Positions 3,517-19,140 of a DNA stretch of 21,676 bases are shown one piece after another. The notes beneath the pieces are model-generated. The model searched no databases. It was given only the letters and a program-made list of their open reading frames with translations, and was not told the origin of the DNA. Origin of the DNA: a virus; the IMG/VR virus record IMGVR_UViG_3300025570_001447, positions 1 to 21,676 of that record, one strand, 5' to 3'. A program made the translations under genes and the position numbers. The stretch's first letter is position 1; each line of letters opens with the position of its first letter.

Positions 3517-3545
3517 ATTATATCACGAAAATAAGACGGTGTCAA
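3517..3545 (-). promoter_or_regulatory. consensus sigma-70 promoter for the left operon
   Basis: On the minus strand TTGACA (3545-3540) and TATAAT (3522-3517) are separated by exactly 17 bases: a perfect match to both hexamers. It lies 3 bases past the clpP-like stop codon (TAAAGGTTGACA) and 39 bases before ATG 3478. TATAAT-G-ATTATA forms a 13-base palindrome over the -10 element. It is likely an early promoter read by host RNA polymerase and drives genes from 3478 to the left edge. Confidence 0.88.
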
Positions 3546-4634: not shown

Positions 4635-4663
4635 AATATATCACACAATTGTTAAGCTGTCAA
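4635..4663 (-). promoter_or_regulatory. sigma-70 promoter for the clpP unit
   Basis: Minus strand: TTGACA (4663-4658), 17-base spacer, TATATT (4640-4635). The -35 is perfect and the -10 matches 5 of 6. It lies 3 bases after the hemC stop codon and about 40 bases before ATG 4597. It separates the hemE-hemF-hemC unit from the clpP unit, although no terminator is visible between them, so readthrough from hemC is likely. Confidence 0.8.
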
Positions 4664-4666
4664 CAT

Positions 4667-5431
4667 TTATTTGTAGAAAACTGTACTCATGCTAATTGGA
4701 TTGTCGCCTTCAGCATGTGCAGCAATCGACGTACTACAATCACCCATAACACCTTTAAGCAATGCTCTTTCTAAATTAGATTGCCGATGAGTTAAATCAT
4801 GATCAGTTAGCTTCACAATAGCAATAGTATCAAGATCTGATTTCCTGCATTGTAAAGCTATAGTACCTTGACCAACTGCTGGAATAATAGGTAGCACAGA
4901 ATATGATCTAACAACTTTAAGAGCGCGTAGGCCAGCTTCTGCTAATACAATAGCATCATATTCGCCAGCGTCAAGCTTCGCTAAACGAGTATCTATGTTT
5001 CCTCTAATATGTTTGATCTTTACATTGTAGCCAGCGTACAATTCTTCTAATTGAGCTTTGCGTCTAGGACTGCTCGTACCTAACGTAAAACCGTCAAAAA
5101 CTTTTCCAATGATTACATCGTATGGGCTATTGCGTTTTAGTGTTGATGTAATTTCTAGATCAGGATGTTCCCAATCTCCAGGCATATCTTTTAGACTATG
5201 CACAGCAACATCAATTTCATTATTGACTAAAGCTAATTCTAATGCACTACAAAATACACCTTTACCACCAATCTCACTCACCGGTACATCGGGGTTTAAA
5301 TCGCCTAATGTTTTAATAACAACTATTTCAGTATCACACGATACTATGTTACAAGAACGTAAGTCATTACAGGCTCGTTTAGCATATGCTAATGCTAAGT
5401 CACTACCTCGAACTCCTACTCTAATCATCAT
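4667..5431 (-). CDS. hemC: porphobilinogen deaminase (hydroxymethylbilane synthase)
   Basis: Joins four porphobilinogen units into hydroxymethylbilane, the third step from 5-aminolevulinate to heme. Seen: RVGVRGSDLALAYA at the N-terminus, VHSLKDMP with catalytic Asp82, LGTSSPRRKAQL (Arg123, Arg124 for substrate carboxylates), IRGNIDTRL, the domain-2 strand YDAIVLAEAGL, PAVGQGTIALQCR, and GDCSTSIAAHA with Cys232, the residue that carries the dipyrromethane cofactor. Length is 254 residues against about 313 in E. coli. Only 22 residues follow the cofactor Cys instead of about 70, so domain 3 is much reduced. I chose ATG 5431 of three nearby ATGs because GGTGAG lies 6 bases upstream and it makes an ATGA overlap with hemF. 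It is the last gene of the SleB-hemE-x-hemF-hemC unit; all catalytic residues appear intact. Confidence 0.93.
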   Translation of the reverse strand: MMIRVGVRGSDLALAYAKRACNDLRSCNIVSCDTEIVVIKTLGDLNPDVPVSEIGGKGVFCSALELALVNNEIDVAVHSLKDMPGDWEHPDLEITSTLKRNSPYDVIIGKVFDGFTLGTSSPRRKAQLEELYAGYNVKIKHIRGNIDTRLAKLDAGEYDAIVLAEAGLRALKVVRSYSVLPIIPAVGQGTIALQCRKSDLDTIAIVKLTDHDLTHRQSNLERALLKGVMGDCSTSIAAHAEGDNPISMSTVFYK

Positions 5432-6213
5432 GACCATCTCACCGTTGGTGGAAGACTCATTAGAATCGCATCCATGTTACCTCCTGTTTTAAAACCAAAA
5501 CGAGTTCCTCTATCATATAATAGATTAAACTCAACATATCGTCCACGTTTAATTTCTAACATTTCTCTATCTGCTTGAGAGTAATTCATCTCTAACGTAG
5601 GAGTAACAATAGATCGTATTAAATCATTAAATGTATTACCAACATCTTTTACAAAATCAAAGCTCATATCCTTTGGATCGTGGTATTCAAAAAACAGACC
5701 GCCTACGCCACGCGTTTCTTTACGATGTGGCAAATAGAAATACTTATCACACGCTTTACTAAAATCAGAATAATACTCTGAATCGTATCCATTACACATA
5801 TCTTTCAATTCGTTATGGTATGATTCTTTATTGAATGGCATACAAGGAGTAACATCCATGCCACCACCAAACCATTCTTTAGTGCTTGTTTTTAAGTAAC
5901 GTGTATTAAAATGCATTGCAGGAGCATGCGGGTTCCAAGGATGAAGAACAACGCTGATGCCAGTAGCCTGATATCTATTGTGCTCTTCAGTACCTGGAAT
6001 TTCGTGTGCAAACGAAGGATCAAATTCAGATTCAATCTTAGAGAAGTTTACAGTTGCTTTCTCAAACACATCACCACGCAAAGTCATATGCCGTTGTGTC
6101 CAGCCTTCTTTTCCCGTGGGCTCGTGGCTTTCCATTTTGCTATCTATATCTTCTATAGTACTACAAATTTCATCTTGGAGGGTTTTAAACCACTTAGCGT
6201 ATTCATTAAACAT
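5428..6213 (-). CDS. hemF: oxygen-dependent coproporphyrinogen III oxidase
   Basis: Decarboxylates two propionates of coproporphyrinogen III to vinyl groups using O2, giving protoporphyrinogen IX. The 261-residue protein carries the family signatures: QATGISVVLHPWNPHAPAMHFNTRY (residues 82-106), WFGGGMDVTPC (114-124), HRKETRGVGGLFFEY (163-177), and the C-terminal block RGRYVEFNLLYDRGTRFGF followed by GGNMDAILMSLPP. Bacterial HemF is about 300 residues, so this is a compact but apparently complete copy, shorter mainly at the N-terminus. ATG 6213 is preferred because AGGTGG lies 7 bases upstream. It overlaps the preceding small gene by 8 bases and hemC by 4, so the three are probably translationally coupled. 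HemF needs oxygen, which fits an aerobic host. There is no signal peptide; it is cytosolic. Confidence 0.96.
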   Translation of the reverse strand: MFNEYAKWFKTLQDEICSTIEDIDSKMESHEPTGKEGWTQRHMTLRGDVFEKATVNFSKIESEFDPSFAHEIPGTEEHNRYQATGISVVLHPWNPHAPAMHFNTRYLKTSTKEWFGGGMDVTPCMPFNKESYHNELKDMCNGYDSEYYSDFSKACDKYFYLPHRKETRGVGGLFFEYHDPKDMSFDFVKDVGNTFNDLIRSIVTPTLEMNYSQADREMLEIKRGRYVEFNLLYDRGTRFGFKTGGNMDAILMSLPPTVRWS

Positions 6214-6559
6214 TATCAATCCACCTTATCTTGTTGCCATAGTGTTCTTCGAATTGACGTATCAGTTCTTCATATGTAATCAGACTTTCATCTTCTATAT
6301 TGTCCAACCAATCACCAAAGGCATTCCAGTCTTCTGTACGCATAGGAGCAACACCATATTCTGATTTGCCGCACCAGTATGTATCATCATCTAGTCCATA
6401 GATGTCGATACGACCACAAGAATAGCTTTCTAAAAAGTCTTTATACTCTACTACTGGTAATATCTTCCCTGATGTTTTCTTCAATACAAACGGTATGTCC
6501 CTTTCCTCATACCAACGAGTAGAAACAGGGCCCATCCAATTTGTGCTATAACTAATCAA
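6206..6559 (-). CDS. hypothetical phage protein inside the heme operon
   Basis: A 117-residue acidic, aromatic-rich protein (ISYSTNWMGPVSTRWYEERDIPF...GRIDIYGLDDDTYWCGKSEYGVAPM...FGDWLDNI). It sits between hemE and hemF, overlapping both by 8 bases. The pattern NWMGPVST-WY...GGRIDI-GLD...YG-P-M is one I recall from conserved unknowns in many T4-like marine phages that lack heme genes. So it is probably an older resident gene around which hem genes were inserted, not a heme enzyme; it shows no resemblance to HemD or HemB. Function unknown. Confidence 0.7.
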   Translation of the reverse strand: MISYSTNWMGPVSTRWYEERDIPFVLKKTSGKILPVVEYKDFLESYSCGRIDIYGLDDDTYWCGKSEYGVAPMRTEDWNAFGDWLDNIEDESLITYEELIRQFEEHYGNKIRWIDNV

Positions 6560-7532
6560 ATCTATTCCTTACGGTATCAATAAAATATGTAATATTACGA
6601 GTAGGAGTAGTCTTATGAATACCGTGACCGAGTCCGCATATCCAACCAGTAGTATCAACTCCATCTAAACTATCAAGCCACTTATCTAATTCGTAATGAT
6701 ACAGTTTATTTTCTAGTAACATATGCTGTTCATTGAAGTTACCTTGAACAAAACCATTCTTATGTGTCTGTAATGTTTTAGCTAAATCTTCAGTAGAATC
6801 AATACCGATGCCAGCAAAATTCATTTTCTTTACTTTCGGCAAAGAGCCTTTTGGTAAATCACGTGAATAATAACCAACGTTACCAATCAATGCAAGTTGC
6901 TCAAGCATTGGTAGATATGTATTTTCGTAATATGCTTTACTTATATTACTTAGACCACTATCGAAAATCATTACGACATCAGCGCCTGCTACTTTCTGTG
7001 CTCTAATACTTTTAACCATTAATGGAATAATAACTTCTGTAAGATATGTAGTCTTAAAATCATTGCTTACTTTATTACCACCAAGAGCATAATTCAATAC
7101 ACTCCAAGGACCACCAACAAATCCAATTAGACTCTTATGATCTGGTAGTATATCTCGAGTAGTAGCCATAGCTGTTTGTTGAAAGTCTAGATGATCCATT
7201 GCCTTTTCAACATCAGTATGGTTTTGCCAATTATCTTCGTTAAGATGAAACTCAAACTTAGGGGCTGGATCAAACTTCAAAGGAAGTCCCAGCCCTTCGA
7301 CATGCCAAAGAATGTCACTAAACAATATAGCAGCATCAAAGTCAAAATCATTAATTGGCAACATAGCAACTTTAGAAGCGATCTGTGGTAGTTTACACAT
7401 CTGCTCAAAGTTGTATGATTCTTTTATTTCCATATACGAAGGCTGATAACGACCAGCTTGTCTCATCATCCAAATAGGAGGACACGACTGCTCTACTCGA
7501 TTAACAGCATTAGTAAATTTATTTGCGTCCAT
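6552..7532 (-). CDS. hemE: uroporphyrinogen decarboxylase
   Basis: Removes the four acetate carboxyls of uroporphyrinogen III to give coproporphyrinogen III. At 326 residues it is slightly shorter than bacterial HemE (about 350). Seen: the N-terminal signature PPIWMMRQAGRYQPSY with substrate-binding Arg24 and Arg28, FDFDAAILFSDIL with the key Asp73, the second signature region GFVGGPWSVLNYALGG with the active-site Tyr, MIFDSG, and a C-terminal GLGHGIHKTTP with the conserved His. All residues known to contact the tetrapyrrole appear present. It is a soluble cytosolic TIM barrel. The gene begins 12 bases after the SleB-type gene with GGAAG in front of its ATG, and its end overlaps the next small gene. 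It is the first heme gene of the unit driven from 8109. Confidence 0.96.
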   Translation of the reverse strand: MDANKFTNAVNRVEQSCPPIWMMRQAGRYQPSYMEIKESYNFEQMCKLPQIASKVAMLPINDFDFDAAILFSDILWHVEGLGLPLKFDPAPKFEFHLNEDNWQNHTDVEKAMDHLDFQQTAMATTRDILPDHKSLIGFVGGPWSVLNYALGGNKVSNDFKTTYLTEVIIPLMVKSIRAQKVAGADVVMIFDSGLSNISKAYYENTYLPMLEQLALIGNVGYYSRDLPKGSLPKVKKMNFAGIGIDSTEDLAKTLQTHKNGFVQGNFNEQHMLLENKLYHYELDKWLDSLDGVDTTGWICGLGHGIHKTTPTRNITYFIDTVRNRFD

Positions 7533-7544
7533 TTCTAACTTCCT

Positions 7545-8054
7545 CTATTCCCAACGGTAGTAAATATGCTCACCAATGCGACCAACCATGCGCAAAGAAG
7601 ATGCCCAGAATGGATTTACATATGTTGCATGATAATGTGTTGCACCTTCAGAAATACCTCGATATTCTTTAAACTCGATCATATTATATGCTACGGTCTG
7701 AGCTTCAAACCAGCGGTCTAAATCTACAGGTACATCCGGCTTTCCATCGCAATACCAAGAAAATTGACAATCTTTTCGGCCTGACTTATAACCGTCTTGT
7801 ACTACGTCGCAGATCGTATCAGGGTAACGGCGGTCTGCTACACGATTTAAAACTACATCCGCAACACCAGCTTTATCTGCTAAATTACTACTACGAGCTT
7901 CGTAATAAACATTAAGAGCTAAGCATTGAGCCTCAGCTTCATTTGCTTGCACAAATTGCGTAGTGCGCATAGCTTGATTCGCGTAAATTGGAGTAAACGC
8001 GGTACCAATAATCATAGTACCGGTTAGGATAGTACTGAGTATATTAATCAACAT
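7545..8054 (-). CDS. secreted SleB-type cell wall hydrolase
   Basis: A 169-residue protein of the cell-wall hydrolase SleB catalytic family (Hydrolase_2, spore cortex lytic enzyme fold). Residues 1-25 are a hydrophobic export signal ending around IYANQA. The mature part shows CLALNVYYEARSSNLADKAG, with the catalytic-type Glu in YYEAR, ADVVLNRV, YPDTICDVV, CQFSWYCDG, and GATHYHATYVNPFW. This family cleaves peptidoglycan. With a signal peptide it could reach the periplasm without a holin. It is first in the unit that continues into hemE, hemF and hemC, starting about 20 bases after the expected transcription start, behind GAGGAAG. Expression from an early-type promoter together with heme genes is odd for a lysis enzyme. 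A role in remodelling the wall, or an unrelated neighbour, are both possible. Confidence 0.88.
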   Translation of the reverse strand: MLINILSTILTGTMIIGTAFTPIYANQAMRTTQFVQANEAEAQCLALNVYYEARSSNLADKAGVADVVLNRVADRRYPDTICDVVQDGYKSGRKDCQFSWYCDGKPDVPVDLDRWFEAQTVAYNMIEFKEYRGISEGATHYHATYVNPFWASSLRMVGRIGEHIYYRWE

Positions 8055-8069
8055 GTATCTTCCTCATTT

Positions 8070-8088
8070 CTTATAATAATATTATAAG
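8070..8088. repeat. 19-base perfect palindrome over a -10 element
   Basis: On the minus strand CTTATAAT-ATT-ATTATAAG reads the same on both strands and fully covers the TATAAT of the promoter at 8109-8081. It could be an operator, or a chance product of a symmetrical -10 in AT-rich DNA. Confidence 0.6.
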
Positions 8089-8109
8089 TTAGTTAAGGAA
8101 TAATGTCAA
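8081..8109 (-). promoter_or_regulatory. consensus sigma-70 promoter for the SleB-hemE-hemF-hemC unit
   Basis: Minus strand: TTGACA (8109-8104), 17-base spacer, TATAAT (8086-8081), a perfect match. The stop codon of the upstream small gene (TGA, 8108-8106) lies inside the -35 hexamer. It probably drives the SleB-type gene and the hem genes as an early transcript. Confidence 0.88.
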
Positions 8110-11586: not shown

Positions 11587-12006
11587 TTACTTTAGCCAAC
11601 CAATCTTTTCACCAGCATCGATTCTTCGTTCAGCTTCTGCTTTTGAACCAGGATAGCGAGTAGCCCAAACGATAATTAACGCAAAAGTAATAGCCATATA
11701 AATGGTAGCTTTTACGTTTGCAAGAGTAAGGAAAAAGACCACAAGTGATGTAGACATTACCGCAACCATTAGATACTTTGCTGGAGTTGGATACACTCGA
11801 TATTTACTCCACTCTTTAATGAATGGACCAAATCGCGGGTGATTCATAATCCAAGCGTGGAATCTTGGACTTGATTTTGCAAAGCAAAACGTTGCCCCAA
11901 GAATTGGAGTACTCCAAGGTAAGCCTGGAAGAATGACTCCAAGATAAGCTACTCCTACCAAGATAATTCCTAGTGTAAACCAAAACGCTCTTTTAATTTT
12001 ATTCAT
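11587..12006 (-). CDS. DUF454 (YbaN-like) inner-membrane protein
   Basis: A 139-residue membrane protein of the DUF454/YbaN family. Seen: an N-terminal membrane helix (FWFTLGIILVGVAYLGVILPGLPWS) with the family's LGVxLPxLPxTP pattern, CFAKSSPRFHAWIMNHPRFG, which is nearly the YbaN CFARSSPRFHAWL motif, then two closely spaced helices (LMVAVMSTSLVVFFLTLA; YMAITFALIIVWATRYP) and a polar tail. The start ATG 12006 follows AAAAGGAAAT; an in-frame ATG at 12060 is less likely. The family has no established biochemical function that I know of. It directly follows hemA, 51 bases after its stop codon, and is probably co-transcribed with nrdB and hemA. A link to heme is a guess from position. Confidence 0.85.
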   Translation of the reverse strand: MNKIKRAFWFTLGIILVGVAYLGVILPGLPWSTPILGATFCFAKSSPRFHAWIMNHPRFGPFIKEWSKYRVYPTPAKYLMVAVMSTSLVVFFLTLANVKATIYMAITFALIIVWATRYPGSKAEAERRIDAGEKIGWLK

Positions 12007-12056
12007 AATAATTTCCTTTTGTTTAAATCTAGCAAAATATGCATTTTGAAGTTGAT

Positions 12057-13247
12057 TCATTTCAATACCTCTTTTAATGCTTCAACAAGCTGTATCATCA
12101 TAATATCATCATGAAACGGCGTAGGTGCTATTCTTAATCTTTCTGTACCTGCTTCTACGGTTGGCGCATTGATTGCCTGAATATATATACCGTATTCATT
12201 TAAAAGACGATCACTTGCAGTTTTGCACTTAAACGCGTCATTAACCATTACTGGTACTATGTGTGTACATGCGGTTTTGTGTATTGGTATACCAGCTTCA
12301 GCTAGCATTTCTTTTAGTTTTGTAGTTCGTTCTTGGTGCTTATCTCTTAGTTGAGGATGATCACGGAGATATCTGATAGATGCCAAGGCTCCGGCACAAA
12401 TGACTGGGCTTGTTGATGTCGTGAATATAAACCCGCTAGCAACACACCTAATAGAGTCAATGATATTAGTGTTACCGACAATATAGCCACCTTGTACCCC
12501 GAATGCTTTGCCGAGTGTACCATTGATAATATCAATCCTATCTGTTAAACCTAACTTTTCGCACCAACCCGCACCTTGTTCACCGTATAGACCAACAGCG
12601 TGGACTTCATCAATATAAGTAATTGCGTCATATTTATCTGCAAGATCACAGATAGCTTCCATCGGACTAATATCACCATCCATAGAATAAACAGACTCAA
12701 ATACAATACAAGGAATGTGTTTTGCCTTTACTGCGGCTTTGAGTTGTGCTTCTAAATCATCTAGATTATTATGTTTAAAAATCTTTTTAGTAGCCCGACT
12801 ATGCGACATACCAACAATCAACGAAGCATGATTTTTACTGTCAGAAATAAAACAAATATTTGGAATAATTTTGCTCAACGCAATAAGAGACCATTCGTTA
12901 GCAACATAAGCACTTGTGAAAAGTAACGATGCAGGCTTAGAATGTAAACTAGCAAGTTCTCGTTCTAGTGTTACGTGATACTGTGATGTTCCACCAATAT
13001 TTCGAGTACCGCCAGAACCAGAACCAGATTGATCTAATGCTGTATGCATGGCGCTTACTACATATTCGTTTTGGCCCATACCAAGATAATCGTTTGAACA
13101 CCAATTAACAATGTTCTTTGGCGCATATTTACCATACCATATAGCTTCTGGGAAAGATCCACGTTCTCTAAGAATATCATTGAATACTCTATAACGACCA
13201 TCTACGCAAAAATCTTTTATTGTTTGTTCAAAATATTCTTCATACAT
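12057..13247 (-). CDS. hemA: 5-aminolevulinate synthase (Shemin pathway)
   Basis: Condenses glycine and succinyl-CoA to 5-aminolevulinate, the committed and usually rate-limiting step of tetrapyrrole synthesis. The 396-residue protein aligns by eye end to end with Rhodobacter ALAS (about 400): [33 protein letters not shown] with Thr81 and Asn83 (ALAS-type, distinguishing it from related AKB-ligase and AONS enzymes), His140, [26 protein letters not shown] with Asp213 and His216, NGTLGKAFG with the PLP lysine Lys247, and [11 protein letters not shown]. All cofactor and substrate residues I can check are present. The gene starts in TAATG with the nrdB stop, so it is translationally coupled to nrdB. 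'hemA' is used in its alphaproteobacterial sense, not glutamyl-tRNA reductase. N-terminal heme regulatory motifs of mitochondrial forms are not visible. Confidence 0.96.
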
Positions 13248-14408: not shown

Positions 14409-14437
14409 ATTTTAACACTATTAGGTGATAATGTCAA
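14409..14437 (-). promoter_or_regulatory. sigma-70 promoter for nrdB-hemA-DUF454
   Basis: Minus strand: TTGACA (14437-14432), 17-base spacer, TAAAAT (14414-14409; 5 of 6). It lies 3 bases after the nrdA stop, in the same TAAAGGTTGACA context as the promoter at 3545. It gives nrdB and hemA a start independent of nrdA. Confidence 0.82.
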
Positions 14438-14440
14438 CCT

Positions 14441-16738
14441 TTAAATTGTGCACGACTCGCAATCTTCGTCATCTAATTCGCCTAGAGCTAATTGCTCTTC
14501 AGTCATTTTATCAGTATCAATTTCACCTTGACCATCGAATGTATTAAAGTAATACAATTGCTTTCCGCCGTACTTATAAAACATTAACAAATGCTGTAAT
14601 AGAACGCTCATTGGAATCTTTTCATCTTCAAAGAATACTGGATTATAGCTCGTATTAACTGAGATACCTTGATCGATATACTTCTGCAATACTGCCATAA
14701 TCTTTAAGTAACCTTCAGGAGACTTTTGATCCCACAATAAATCATATTTATTTTTAAGACGACGGTATTCAGGTACAACCTGCTTGAGAACTCCGTGCTT
14801 ACTCTGCTTGACACTTATAAGACTACGGGGTGGTTCAATACCATTAGTAGCGTTAGCGACCTGTGCAGAAGTTTCAGAAGGCATCAGAGCCATAAGAGTA
14901 GAGTTACGAATACCCGTTTCTTTCAGTTGCTTGCGAAGGCCTTTCCAATCCATACGTTCTTTATGCTTGACCAACTCGTCAAGATCTTTCTTATATGTTT
15001 GATTAGGTGTAATGCCTTGGCCATATTTAGTTTCAGAAGCACCTGAGATATTGCCTTGCTCAATAGCTAGATCAGCTGAAGCTTTAATAAGATAATAAGA
15101 CCATGATTCAGCGTACTCATCAATCAACTCTAAGCCCTCTGGAGTGATATCCTGATAGCTTAGGTCATGCTTTGCCATCCAATAAGCAAAGTTAATAATG
15201 CCCACTCCGATAGGTCTACGCTTCTCTGTAGACAGTTGTGCAGCAAGAACTGGATAATTCTGGTAACTTAGCAAAGCATCTAATCCACGAACTGCTAGTG
15301 TACATGCTTTTTCAAAATCAGCTGGTGATTTAACGTTACCCCAGTTAATAGCAGAAAGAGTACATAGACTAATTTCACCTTCAGGATCGTTAATATCATT
15401 CAAAGGCTTAGTTGGCAATGTAATTTCTGCGCACAAGTTACTTTGACGAATAGGAGCAAGATCAGGCAGGAATGAACCATGATCGTTTGCATTATCTACG
15501 TTCTGCAGATAGATACGACCAGTGTTTTTACGCTCATCCATAAACGAACTAAACAACGCTGCAGCCTTGAGTGTTTTCTTACGTAGCTTTGTATTACGTT
15601 CTGCTTTTTCATACAGTTCACGGAACTTATCTTGATCTGCATAGAACGCGTCGTATAGGCCTGGAACATCGCTTGGTGAAAACAATGTGATATCGCCACC
15701 AGTAATTAGACGCTCGTACATCAACTTATTAAACTGTACACCATAATCCATATGACGAACGCGGTTATCTTCAGTACCTTTGTTGTTTTTTAGTACAAGA
15801 AGATCTTCTGCTTCATAATGCCAAATAGGATAATAAATTGTACCAGCTCCACCACGAACACCACCTTGCGAACATGATTTAATCGCTGTTTGGAAGTGCT
15901 TATAGAAAGGAATAACACCGGTATGATATGCGTCACCTTTACGAATAGGAGTACCAACTGCACGAATTGACCCTGCGCCAATACCAATACCAGCTTTTTG
16001 ACTTACATATTTTACAACGGCAGATGCAGTAGCGCTAATGCTGTCAAGAGAATCGCCAGTTTCAATGAGAACACAACTACTGAACTGACGTTGTGGCGTA
16101 CGAACACCGGCCATAACAGGAGTTGGCAAGCTAATGTCGTGTAGAGAAATAGCATCGTAATAATCCTTTACGTATTGCAGTCTAGTTTCTTCTGGGTACT
16201 TATGAAACAATACAGATGCAATAAGAATATAACACATTTGAGGTGTTTCAAATATCTCGCCAGTAACACGGTTCTGCACAAGATACTTACCACGTAGTTG
16301 TTCCATTGCTACATAAGTTAGACTTTCGTCACGGTCATGCTTAATGAAACCATTGATCTTATCCCACTCTTCTTCAGTATAATATGAAATGAGTTCTTGA
16401 TCATAAAAGCCACGTTGAATATTTTTCTTTACTAACTCGAGGACATGAATTGGTTCGTATCCATCATATACTTCTTTACGCAACGCGTAGTTAATTAGAC
16501 GGCCACCAACAAATTGATAGTTTGGCGTGTCTTCATTAATAAGATCAGCTGCAGCTTTAATTAGAGTCTCTTGGATTTCAGAAGTTTTCATACCGTTATA
16601 AAACTGAATCTGACTACTAATTTCAACTTCGCTTGGGCTAACGCCGGTAATACCTTCACATGCGTGGAAAACCACTTTGTGAAGCTTTTCAACGTTCAAT
16701 GGTTCTTTTAGACCATCTCGTTTGGTAACTTGAATCAT
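14441..16738 (-). CDS. nrdA: class Ia ribonucleotide reductase, alpha subunit
   Basis: The 765-residue catalytic subunit reducing ribonucleoside diphosphates. It aligns by eye with E. coli NrdA throughout: an N-terminal ATP-cone (VTKRDGLKEPLNVEKLHKV to about residue 95; overall allosteric activity site), GKYLVQNRVTGEI, SLPTPVMAGVRTP, FSSCVLIETGDSLDSI with the first redox Cys, SQGGVRGGAGT, NLCAEITLPTKPL with the thiyl-radical Cys and Glu, LCTLSAINWG with the partner Cys, and ALMPSETSAQ. The C-terminal CESC pair accepts electrons from thioredoxin or glutaredoxin. The start ATG 16738 follows AAAGGAAG. It lies between thyA and nrdB as in T4, where the same four-gene order frd-td-nrdA-nrdB occurs. 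Confidence 0.98.
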   Translation of the reverse strand: MIQVTKRDGLKEPLNVEKLHKVVFHACEGITGVSPSEVEISSQIQFYNGMKTSEIQETLIKAAADLINEDTPNYQFVGGRLINYALRKEVYDGYEPIHVLELVKKNIQRGFYDQELISYYTEEEWDKINGFIKHDRDESLTYVAMEQLRGKYLVQNRVTGEIFETPQMCYILIASVLFHKYPEETRLQYVKDYYDAISLHDISLPTPVMAGVRTPQRQFSSCVLIETGDSLDSISATASAVVKYVSQKAGIGIGAGSIRAVGTPIRKGDAYHTGVIPFYKHFQTAIKSCSQGGVRGGAGTIYYPIWHYEAEDLLVLKNNKGTEDNRVRHMDYGVQFNKLMYERLITGGDITLFSPSDVPGLYDAFYADQDKFRELYEKAERNTKLRKKTLKAAALFSSFMDERKNTGRIYLQNVDNANDHGSFLPDLAPIRQSNLCAEITLPTKPLNDINDPEGEISLCTLSAINWGNVKSPADFEKACTLAVRGLDALLSYQNYPVLAAQLSTEKRRPIGVGIINFAYWMAKHDLSYQDITPEGLELIDEYAESWSYYLIKASADLAIEQGNISGASETKYGQGITPNQTYKKDLDELVKHKERMDWKGLRKQLKETGIRNSTLMALMPSETSAQVANATNGIEPPRSLISVKQSKHGVLKQVVPEYRRLKNKYDLLWDQKSPEGYLKIMAVLQKYIDQGISVNTSYNPVFFEDEKIPMSVLLQHLLMFYKYGGKQLYYFNTFDGQGEIDTDKMTEEQLALGELDDEDCESCTI

Positions 16739-16787: not shown

Positions 16788-17652
16788 TTGCCATCTTAGC
16801 TTTAATTGTATCATGGTGAAAATAATTTGTCAATGTAAATTTACTAACTGTATCATTAGTATATTCATTAATAAATAAAAGTTCAAATGATTCATCAATG
16901 TTTAATGTTGGTGCCGCAAAGCTAGTACGCGATAATTGCTCGTTTACTTGATCAAAATGGTTACTGTAAATATGAGCATCTCCAATAGTATGGACTAACT
17001 CGCCTACTTCTAAACCACACTCGCGTGCAATAATATGTGTAAGGAGAGCATATGATGCAATATTAAATGGTACACCAAGAAATACATCTGCACTTCTTTG
17101 GTACATCTGGCAACTTAACTTTCCGCTGTATACTCTAAATTGAGACATAACGTGACACGGCGGAAGCGCCATTTTATCTATCTGATTAGGATTCCATGCA
17201 TTAAGGATTAGTCGTCTGCTATCTGGGTTTGATTTAATTTCATTAATAAGCCACTCAATTTGATCAAATCCTTGTCCATTAAAGTCACGCCATTGAGCAC
17301 CGTAGACTGGACCAAGTTCTTTATAGAACCGGTTATTTGGATATCCTAATGCAACACCTTGGTTATCAGCATTGTCAGTCCAAATAGTTTTTTTATCTTC
17401 AAGCACAGACCGATGTTTACCATATGTAAGCTCAGCTAATCTGCGTTCATCAGTACTACCTTCGAGGAACCACAATAGCTCTCCGACAACAGATTTCCAT
17501 GCAAGCTTCTTTGTAGTTACAGCAGGAAATCCTTCTCTCAAGTCAAACCGCATTTGATGACCAAAAATAGAACGTGTACCAGTTCCGGTACGGTCATTTA
17601 CATCTTCGCCTGACTCCATAATAACACGTAGTAATCTTTCGTAATCATACAT
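16783..17652 (-). CDS. thyA: thymidylate synthase (ThyA)
   Basis: Methylates dUMP to dTMP with methylene-tetrahydrofolate. A 289-residue protein with DVNDRTGTGTRSIFG (Arg21 region for phosphate), LLWFLEGSTD, LGPVYGAQWRDF, SRRLILNAWNP, and catalytic Cys166 in MALPPCHVMSQF, then SCQMYQRSADVFLGVPFNIASYALL and GDAHIYSNH. All signature residues of the family are present. The preferred start is ATG 17652, overlapping the dihydrofolate reductase stop by 8 bases; a TTG at 17682 is unlikely. It continues the DNA-precursor block between folA and nrdA. The frame is uninterrupted, with no sign of the group I intron of T4 td. A consensus promoter for nrdA lies within its 3' end. Confidence 0.97.
   Translation of the reverse strand: MYDYERLLRVIMESGEDVNDRTGTGTRSIFGHQMRFDLREGFPAVTTKKLAWKSVVGELLWFLEGSTDERRLAELTYGKHRSVLEDKKTIWTDNADNQGVALGYPNNRFYKELGPVYGAQWRDFNGQGFDQIEWLINEIKSNPDSRRLILNAWNPNQIDKMALPPCHVMSQFRVYSGKLSCQMYQRSADVFLGVPFNIASYALLTHIIARECGLEVGELVHTIGDAHIYSNHFDQVNEQLSRTSFAAPTLNIDESFELLFINEYTNDTVSKFTLTNYFHHDTIKAKMAI
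16805..16833 (-). promoter_or_regulatory. sigma-70 promoter inside the thyA 3' end, for nrdA
   Basis: Minus strand: TTGACA (16833-16828), 17-base spacer, TACAAT (16810-16805; 5 of 6). It lies in the last codons of thyA and about 65 bases before the nrdA ATG. It has the same spacing as the intergenic promoters, which supports it despite being within a gene. Confidence 0.65.
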
Positions 17653-18142
17653 CGTTTTTAATCCATTTTGTGATTGTTCCAAAGCTTTTTACTTCCCAAG
17701 ATGCGGCAGAAAATTGCTCCGTGATTTGTTCTTTTGGCAGGAAAGTATCGCAGTTATAATCACCTTGAACGTTATTCAGCCAGAGTTCGTCAATATAAGG
17801 CATCATCCCTTCAACTAATTGAGCGCCGCCAATAACCCAAATATCTTTATTTGCAAATTTTATTTGCGGCAGGATCTTTAACAAACTTCTCATATCTACC
17901 ACAATATTACCTAGCGCGCCTTTAATGTCTTGTGTTGTTACAATAACATTAGTTCTATTAGGCAGAGGTTTAAACGGTAGACTATCCCAAGTATTACGGC
18001 CCATAATTACTACATCGCCAGATGTAGTTTCTTTAAACCATTTCATATCTTCACTATTTTTTGGCCAAGGAAGATCTCCGTCTTTGCCTATTCCCCATTG
18101 TGAATCGTGTGCTAATATAGCTCTAATCAAGTTTTTCTCCAT
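17645..18142 (-). CDS. folA: dihydrofolate reductase
   Basis: Regenerates tetrahydrofolate consumed by thymidylate synthase. A 165-residue DHFR with WGIGKDGDLPWPKNSEDMKWFK (the Met20-loop and helix B; the acid residue in place is Asp), VVIMGRNTWDSLP, PLPNRTNVIVTT, and DIWVIGGAQLVEG, which binds NADPH. Length is normal for bacterial and phage DHFR. It overlaps the primase gene upstream by 16 bases and thyA downstream by 8, so the three are probably translationally coupled. Functional pairing with thyA is the standard arrangement in T4-like phages (frd-td). Confidence 0.95.
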   Translation of the reverse strand: MEKNLIRAILAHDSQWGIGKDGDLPWPKNSEDMKWFKETTSGDVVIMGRNTWDSLPFKPLPNRTNVIVTTQDIKGALGNIVVDMRSLLKILPQIKFANKDIWVIGGAQLVEGMMPYIDELWLNNVQGDYNCDTFLPKEQITEQFSAASWEVKSFGTITKWIKNDV

Positions 18143-19140
18143 GATGTAAATTTTAATTCTGCCTGCAAGCCTTGATATACGTGGTCTTCAATTAGCTTTT
18201 CTACATTTAATCCAGCCAAGTGCAGTTCGTTAATATCTTTACCTGGTAGGTTCTCAGGCCATATACAAATTTTGTAACCATTCTTTATTACTTTTTCCAT
18301 ACGCTTGTGTATTTCTTTGTTGCGGGGTTCTGAATCAAACACATAAATTGCGTTTTCATTTGCAGAGTTGCCGTTGCCTTCAGCGCCATTCATAGAGATA
18401 GCATTTTCAAGGAACATACTATCGATAGCACCTTCAACGATATAATACGGATGATCTAAGTTAACTTTATCTAGACCAAAGATCTTTGGTCTTTCATCAA
18501 ACATAATAGTTATATATCTGATTCCCTTAGGATTAAAACCACGCGCAGACACACCAAAGACTTTACCGTTTTCATCTAAGAAAGGTATTACTAATCTTGG
18601 TTCATCTTTGCCGATTTTTGCTGGATCAAACTTGTTTGGAATAATCTCGTTAATCCATGTCATAAAGTGACGAGCATAGAATAAGCGATAGTGATGATTA
18701 GTAGGTATCATTCGTTTATTAATATACTTCTTTATAGGATGATCGTATGCTAACTGACTAATCTTTTTGAGTTTTTTGAGGGGATCTTTACTGAACACAG
18801 GAGCTCTAGTTTTAAATTGCTCAACTGGCTGTTCTTTCTTGGTATCTCTAACAGTTGTGTTTGCTACAAACTTTTCAGCAATATAATCATTATATAATAG
18901 AGGGTCAACTGTTTTAAGAAAGTGATTGAAGCTATGGCTTGCACCACAATTGTGGCAGTAATATGAGAACTTGTTATCACGCTCTAACAACCAACCACGA
19001 GCCTTTGAACGATTCTTTTGAGAATCGCCACAGATAGGACAACGAAAGTTGATTTTGTAAGGATTTGTATGTTTTATTTTGAAGTGATCAAGACGACCAG
19101 AAAGCATCTGAGCAAATTGAATATCAATAAATTCTGCCAT
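18127..19140 (-). CDS. DNA primase, T4 gp61-like
   Basis: Makes RNA primers for lagging-strand synthesis and works with a gp41-type helicase. The 337-residue protein matches T4 gp61 (342 residues) along its length: an N-terminal zinc ribbon CPIC (34-37) and CHNC (62-65) with KARGW between, HPIKKYINKRMIP, EPRLVIPFLDENGKVFGVSARGF, YIVEGAIDSMFLENAI with the TOPRIM Glu, YVFDSEPRNKEIHKRM with the TOPRIM Asp, and DINELHLAG. ATG 19140 is chosen because an upstream TTG at 19164 is within a few bases of the expected transcription start. The Shine-Dalgarno is weak. Two tandem promoters lie upstream, and it leads the folA-thyA block. Confidence 0.95.
   Translation of the reverse strand: MAEFIDIQFAQMLSGRLDHFKIKHTNPYKINFRCPICGDSQKNRSKARGWLLERDNKFSYYCHNCGASHSFNHFLKTVDPLLYNDYIAEKFVANTTVRDTKKEQPVEQFKTRAPVFSKDPLKKLKKISQLAYDHPIKKYINKRMIPTNHHYRLFYARHFMTWINEIIPNKFDPAKIGKDEPRLVIPFLDENGKVFGVSARGFNPKGIRYITIMFDERPKIFGLDKVNLDHPYYIVEGAIDSMFLENAISMNGAEGNGNSANENAIYVFDSEPRNKEIHKRMEKVIKNGYKICIWPENLPGKDINELHLAGLNVEKLIEDHVYQGLQAELKFTSWRKT

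Follow-up and report, generated by a model that had tools for sequence, protein, structure and literature searches.

Dozens of related phages from water, the one studied here among them, carry a compact cassette of heme-biosynthesis genes that covers most of the pathway but in no case the HemD step. Our analysis suggests that the cassette would accelerate heme production in the infected cell and that the host would contribute the enzymes it lacks. We studied it in a linear 21.7-kb piece of the genome of a T4-like phage (IMG/VR record IMGVR_UViG_3300025570_001447; hereafter the window), whose main genes all lie on the minus strand. A 52-kb contig, G013, represents the same phage; it contains the window, is identical to it over the shared genes, and extends beyond it. 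Four heme enzymes are encoded in the window: AlaS and, in a separate block, HemE, HemF, and HemC. The latter three constitute a conserved core that recurs in at least five gene contexts and is under purifying selection, and neither HemD nor ferrochelatase (HemH) was found beside it or elsewhere in the records searched. We consider it probable that these phages raise the heme flux of the host, borrowing the HemD and HemH that the host itself provides.

The hemE-hemF-hemC core

Scans of viral contigs yielded 16 loci for HemE, 6 for HemC, 39 for HemF, and at least 80 for AlaS; 46 related viral records were then examined closely for hemE, hemF, and hemC, and 67 records for the wider set of heme genes. 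All three genes are complete and clustered in 35 of the 46, spanning 2.0 to 4.1 kb, while two records have HemF and HemC and two further ones are cut short. The clade of the window shows the arrangement nrdA-nrdB-alaS ... hydrolase-E-(x)-F-C, x being a small gene discussed below. Elsewhere the genes occur as gp47/gp46-E-F-C, as E-F-C behind a gene for a protein of 357 to 361 amino acids (aa), as F-C near nrdA, as F-C-E-B with alaS about 10 kb distant, and, in a further clade, as a canonical HemE followed by a helicase, F, and C. The initial annotation had remarked that the genes do not stand in the order of their pathway steps; this is so, but the order varies by clade (E-F-C or F-C-E-B) and carries no diagnostic weight. 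The cassette consists of host-type metabolic genes in a phage setting, flanked by nrdA/B, thyA, a T4-type primase, and clpP, and by this context and the selection acting on it, it appears to be an auxiliary metabolic gene module.

The clade with the canonical HemE (L243, 4731-8910, and L244) is peculiar in that this protein is only 29% identical to the HemE of the window and is separated by a UvsW-like helicase from a phage-type hemF-hemC pair. It was apparently replaced or gained independently; that these are bacterial contigs, as such a HemE might suggest, is ruled out by the phage helicase and gp46/47 genes. Among isolated phages, hemC, hemE, and hemF had only distant matches (<45% identity), in unannotated fragments or in records whose content looks bacterial (“Acinetobacter phage MD-2021a” and contigs of Salmonella, for instance).

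The identity of the enzymes was judged by NCBIfam equivalog cut-offs, catalytic residues, and the ratio of nonsynonymous to synonymous substitution rates (dN/dS). HemC passes the equivalog TIGR00212 (236 versus 164 bits), and in 21 phage sequences aligned to solved enzymes its residues D84, R10, R125, R126, R145, R151, and C234, the cysteine that holds the dipyrromethane cofactor, are invariant. Its structural model, with a predicted local distance difference test score of 89, gives template modeling scores of 0.80 to 0.88 to solved hydroxymethylbilane synthases. HemE passes the Pfam model URO-D (199 versus 24 bits), and its catalytic residues R24, R28, D73, Y148, S192, and H303, which we take to be equivalent to human Arg37, Arg41, Asp86, Tyr164, Ser219, and His339 (human numbering), are all invariant. 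HemF passes the equivalog NF003727 (310 versus 297 bits), conserves H103 and the RGRYVEFNL motif, and has a short C-terminus as in SAR11 (261 to 272 aa in phages, 267 to 275 aa in SAR11, and 285 to 314 aa elsewhere). AlaS likewise passes its equivalog (557 versus 339 bits) and has the pyridoxal phosphate lysine in NGTLGK; it lacks both residues of heme feedback defined in Rhodobacter capsulatus, with Lys340 at the position of His342 and an end before the position of Cys400. The dN/dS values of 0.05 to 0.21 in HemC, HemE, HemF, and AlaS point to purifying selection, and all four are predicted to be active enzymes.

The heme genes of the window, with the elements that adjoin them, are as follows.

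14409..14437, minus strand: promoter-like site TTGACA-17-TAAAAT, an 11/12 match, before nrdB-alaS-DUF454-rmlB and further genes
12057..13247, minus strand: AlaS, 5-aminolevulinate synthase, in the preceding unit, behind nrdB
8081..8109, minus strand: sigma-70 type promoter TTGACA-17-TATAAT, a 12/12 match with a 17-nt spacer, some 25 nt ahead of the start codon of the hydrolase
7545..8054, minus strand: secreted cell-wall hydrolase, Pfam Hydrolase_2, SleB/CwlJ-like, with a signal-peptide-like N-terminus
6552..7532, minus strand: HemE, uroporphyrinogen decarboxylase, divergent, 326 aa; best family TIGR01464, below its cut-off
6206..6559, minus strand: x, a 117-aa protein of phrog_18736, function not assigned
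5428..6219, minus strand: HemF, oxygen-dependent coproporphyrinogen III oxidase, likely start ATG at 6213
4667..5437, minus strand: HemC, hydroxymethylbilane synthase, 256 aa, domain 3 shortened, cofactor Cys234 kept
4635..4663, minus strand: promoter-like site TTGACA-17-TATATT, an 11/12 match, beginning 4 nt past hemC

From the promoter onward the order is hydrolase, hemE, x, hemF, hemC, and the block is as tight as initially described, with no gap or overlap greater than 14 nt: a gap of 12 nt between hydrolase and hemE, and overlaps of 8 nt between hemE and x, of 8 to 14 nt between x and hemF, depending on the start of HemF, and of 10 nt between hemF and hemC. For HemF, the ATG at 6213 is more likely to be the start than the TTG at 6219 that was assigned mechanically. 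The heme unit is bounded on both sides, since promoter-like sites stand at either end (8109-8081 and 4663-4635); where hemC ends, no terminator-like site was detected. We infer that the five genes share one transcript. Three heme enzymes had been recognized behind the promoter, and these identifications hold; overlooked was AlaS, which catalyzes the committed step and is encoded 4 kb upstream; the gene for a DUF454 membrane protein (11587-12060) comes next after it.

The perfect sigma-70 type promoter noted at the outset is not a chance match, because 11 perfect TTGACA-16/18-TATAAT sites occur in the 52 kb of G013 against 0.1 expected under a first-order Markov model, and because a promoter upstream of the heme operon is kept in three relatives (G003, G004, and G007), in which the spacers have drifted. 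It belongs to a phage-wide host-type class that is found across the phage group and is not specific to heme genes. The majority of the perfect sites in G013, which number about 100 times the chance expectation, lie on the coding strand; those in the window are at 3545, 8109, 19204, and 19267 (minus strand).

The two nonheme members of the block call for separate treatment. The hydrolase matches Pfam Hydrolase_2 (71 versus 27 bits) and no narrower family; it falls far below the equivalog of the spore cortex-lytic SleB (TIGR02869, 34.6 versus 236.5 bits), and the name SleB first given to it was thus too specific. Its place beside the heme genes is conserved in the window-type clade only, and x occurs in some window-type relatives only, between hemE and hemF. 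In G004, where hemF has been lost, x lies between hemE and hemC. Because other clades lack the hydrolase and x at that place, the two are local passengers and not parts of the heme module.

The gap at HemD and HemH

The absence of hemD, remarked on initially, was borne out: none was found in the window or in the 52-kb extension. Using the model PF02602, HemD was detected in none of the 67 records and in none of the 44 HemC-positive records (1.43 Mb), among which eight contigs reach 50 kb or more and the two longest measure 107 and 156 kb, none of the records being known to be complete. The same model detects HemD in 18 of 20 SAR11 genomes, where it adjoins hemC in those in which both were placed. 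A profile of eight SAR11 HemDs, run with filters off, found nothing in 8545 phage reading frames (best E value, 0.48), nor in 80 further loci. HemH was likewise absent from all 67 records. The gap at HemD thus appears to be a property of the phage group and not of this fragment.

Three alternatives had been raised for this gap, namely, that the host HemD suffices, that hemD lies elsewhere in the phage, or that off-path porphyrins accumulate. The second, in which a hemD outside the sequenced fragments, or too divergent to be detected, makes the phage set an ordinary and complete one, draws on the limited coverage of the window's phage, 52 kb, when the isolate closest to it in UvsX has a genome of 156 kb, and on the weak conservation of HemD compared with most other enzymes of the pathway. 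We nevertheless consider it unlikely, given the negative searches of the HemC-bearing records, two of them over 100 kb, and of the phage reading frames with the SAR11 profile; further, SAR11 has HemD right beside hemC, where the phage block has none, and no conserved neighbor of hemC could be HemD. These neighbors are phage genes that differ by clade (a methyltransferase, a GNAT-like protein, and gp46/47). Other candidates were rejected in turn: x, which at 117 aa matches phrog_18736 only and is absent from most cassettes, and a 233-aa protein between heme oxygenase (HemO) and bilin reductase in G006, which is not HemD-like. As for HemH, a “putative ferrochelatase” of Pelagibacter phage Mosig (MT647606; L399, 2363-3133) has no Pfam ferrochelatase match. 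It sits among 2-oxoglutarate-Fe(II) oxygenase genes, and its name is probably wrong.

The third alternative turns on the isomers of the pathway. Without HemD, hydroxymethylbilane cyclizes spontaneously to the I isomer; HemE accepts both isomers, HemF only III. An excess of HemC might accordingly outrun the host HemD, with isomer-I porphyrins accumulating, perhaps as a photosensitizer or a signal, a notion to which the consistent lack of HemD, the tolerance of HemE, and seven records with HemE and HemC but without HemF lend some color. We regard such an off-path function as highly improbable, because the block of 35 records retains HemF, which acts on the type III isomer alone and evolves under purifying selection, though this argument is weaker in the seven records without it. 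Moreover, the putative hosts encode HemD, and two phages add HemJ, the step directly after HemF. Selection for HemF alongside HemC and HemE implies that infected cells form the III isomer and hence that the host HemD would be active and sufficient. We also think it very doubtful that the gap reflects a HemD activity residing in an unrelated protein, in the shortened HemC, or in the divergent HemE, or else a selected host control of the uroporphyrinogen III branch point.

Of the three alternatives, that of a sufficient host HemD fits best, given the 44 HemC-bearing records without HemD and the SAR11 genomes that encode it, including those with the closest bacterial HemF found. Hence, we propose that AlaS without heme-feedback residues would raise 5-aminolevulinate, while HemC, HemE, and HemF, expressed from one promoter of the host sigma-70 type, would add capacity between porphobilinogen and protoporphyrinogen IX. 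Host enzymes present at the start of infection would perform the HemB step in this phage and the HemD and HemH steps in all records examined. The phage would thereby supply the regulated first step and several slow ones, leaving the remainder to the host. The purpose is likely to be either the maintenance of heme, and hence of respiration, during the shut-off of host expression or the provision of substrate for a phage heme oxygenase and bilin reductase, which several of these phages have as well.

Several points weigh against this proposal. Most contigs are fragments, so that any single phage could hold HemD elsewhere. The phage HemC (246 to 256 aa in most phages, versus 302 to 309 aa in SAR11 and 307 to 315 aa in other bacteria) is some 55 residues shorter in domain 3 than its SAR11 and E. 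coli counterparts; HemE, though TIGR01464 is its best family, falls under that equivalog cut-off (196 versus 303 bits); and HemE and HemC occur without HemF in 7 of the 46 records. Finally, SAR11, as the nearest bacterial group among those sampled, is no more than a candidate host.

On this last point, phage HemF (16 sequences) and HemC (21) each form one clade with full support, beside SAR11 among the groups sampled, and the best 80 bacterial HemF matches are all from Pelagibacteraceae (47 to 51% identity, versus 38 to 44% for other bacteria). Since the search patterns were taken from the phage sequences and marine alphaproteobacteria other than SAR11 were hardly sampled, we grade the origin of the heme genes as likely alphaproteobacterial and only possibly SAR11. 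The G+C content of the phage is 38.6%, which exceeds the usual value for SAR11 and its phages. Similarity of NrdA, primase, or UvsX did not point to a host either, the nearest isolates being scattered and mostly T4-like phages.

Added steps and the bilin route

Beyond the core, HemB is found in 12 records, HemJ in 2, and HemO in 15 of the 67, of which 7 are HemC-positive. In G006 (L150, 6248-10355), HemJ, a 270-aa secreted-looking protein, HemO, the 233-aa protein mentioned above, and a bilin reductase are grouped near T4-type replication genes, on the same contig as E-F-C. A further reading of such genes is that heme would be mainly an intermediate, with a bilin, or released iron, formed by phage heme oxygenase and bilin reductase, as the true product. 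The adjoining HemO and bilin reductase of G006 and of the Mosig genome fit this reading, as does G003, which among the phages with more upstream sequence is the closest to that of the window and has a bilin reductase about 32 kb upstream of its heme block. However, a search of the 52 kb available for the window's phage turned up neither enzyme, and many contigs with ferredoxin-dependent bilin reductases show no link to hemE-F-C in the sequenced stretch; we hold it improbable that heme is mainly an intermediate.

Four further records (L401-L404) are fragments with HemO and bilin reductase. L404 comes from the same metagenome as G013 and is possibly a missing piece of the window's phage. G013 (L143) also encodes a serine hydroxymethyltransferase and an S-adenosylmethionine synthetase (15015-16199 and 17190-18287), and the window has thyA and a dihydrofolate reductase; the hydroxymethyltransferase would also give glycine, the substrate of AlaS.

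Relation to known phage tetrapyrrole genes

Phage AlaS, read so far as a boost by a single gene, is here accompanied by later steps of the pathway; across the related phages, nearly all soluble steps from glycine and succinyl-CoA to protoporphyrinogen IX are phage-encoded, HemD excepted, and in some the route from heme to bilin is as well. The purpose of phage heme metabolism thereby becomes testable, both as to the flux-limiting steps and as to whether heme or bilin is the goal, and the consistent absence of HemD and HemH predicts host enzymes that survive the host shut-off.

There is precedent for parts of this picture. A viral AlaS (valaS), shown to be active, and a hemO-pcyA/X-valaS cassette have been published (Wegner et al. 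2024, PMC11480375); that system resembles ours in its T4-like aquatic phages, in a catalytic lysine without the heme-feedback residues, and in the heme oxygenase and bilin reductase of related phages. That report does not mention hemC, hemD, hemF, or coproporphyrinogen and has no hemE-F-C block, whereas here AlaS accompanies HemC, HemE, and HemF and, in relatives, also HemB and HemJ. A metagenomic genome of a deep-ecotype pelagimyophage was credited, in one sentence, with a coproporphyrinogen oxidase and a porphobilinogen deaminase (PMC7029224, 2020), that is, with HemF and HemC in a pelagiphage, but without HemE, the gene arrangement, or the question of HemD; in the present phages the genes are clustered and recurrent and were tested for D and H. 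The cyanophage genes ho1, pcyA, and pebS and the HemO and PcyX of phage Mosig are also cases of tetrapyrrole metabolism in Kyanoviridae, yet they degrade heme, while those of the window make it. In the open full-text literature (subscription papers and preprints lay outside the search), we found no description of a phage hemE-hemF-hemC cassette or of its missing hemD. Thus, although AlaS and a one-line mention of HemF with HemC preceded it, the clustered cassette with its gap at D and H appears to be undescribed.

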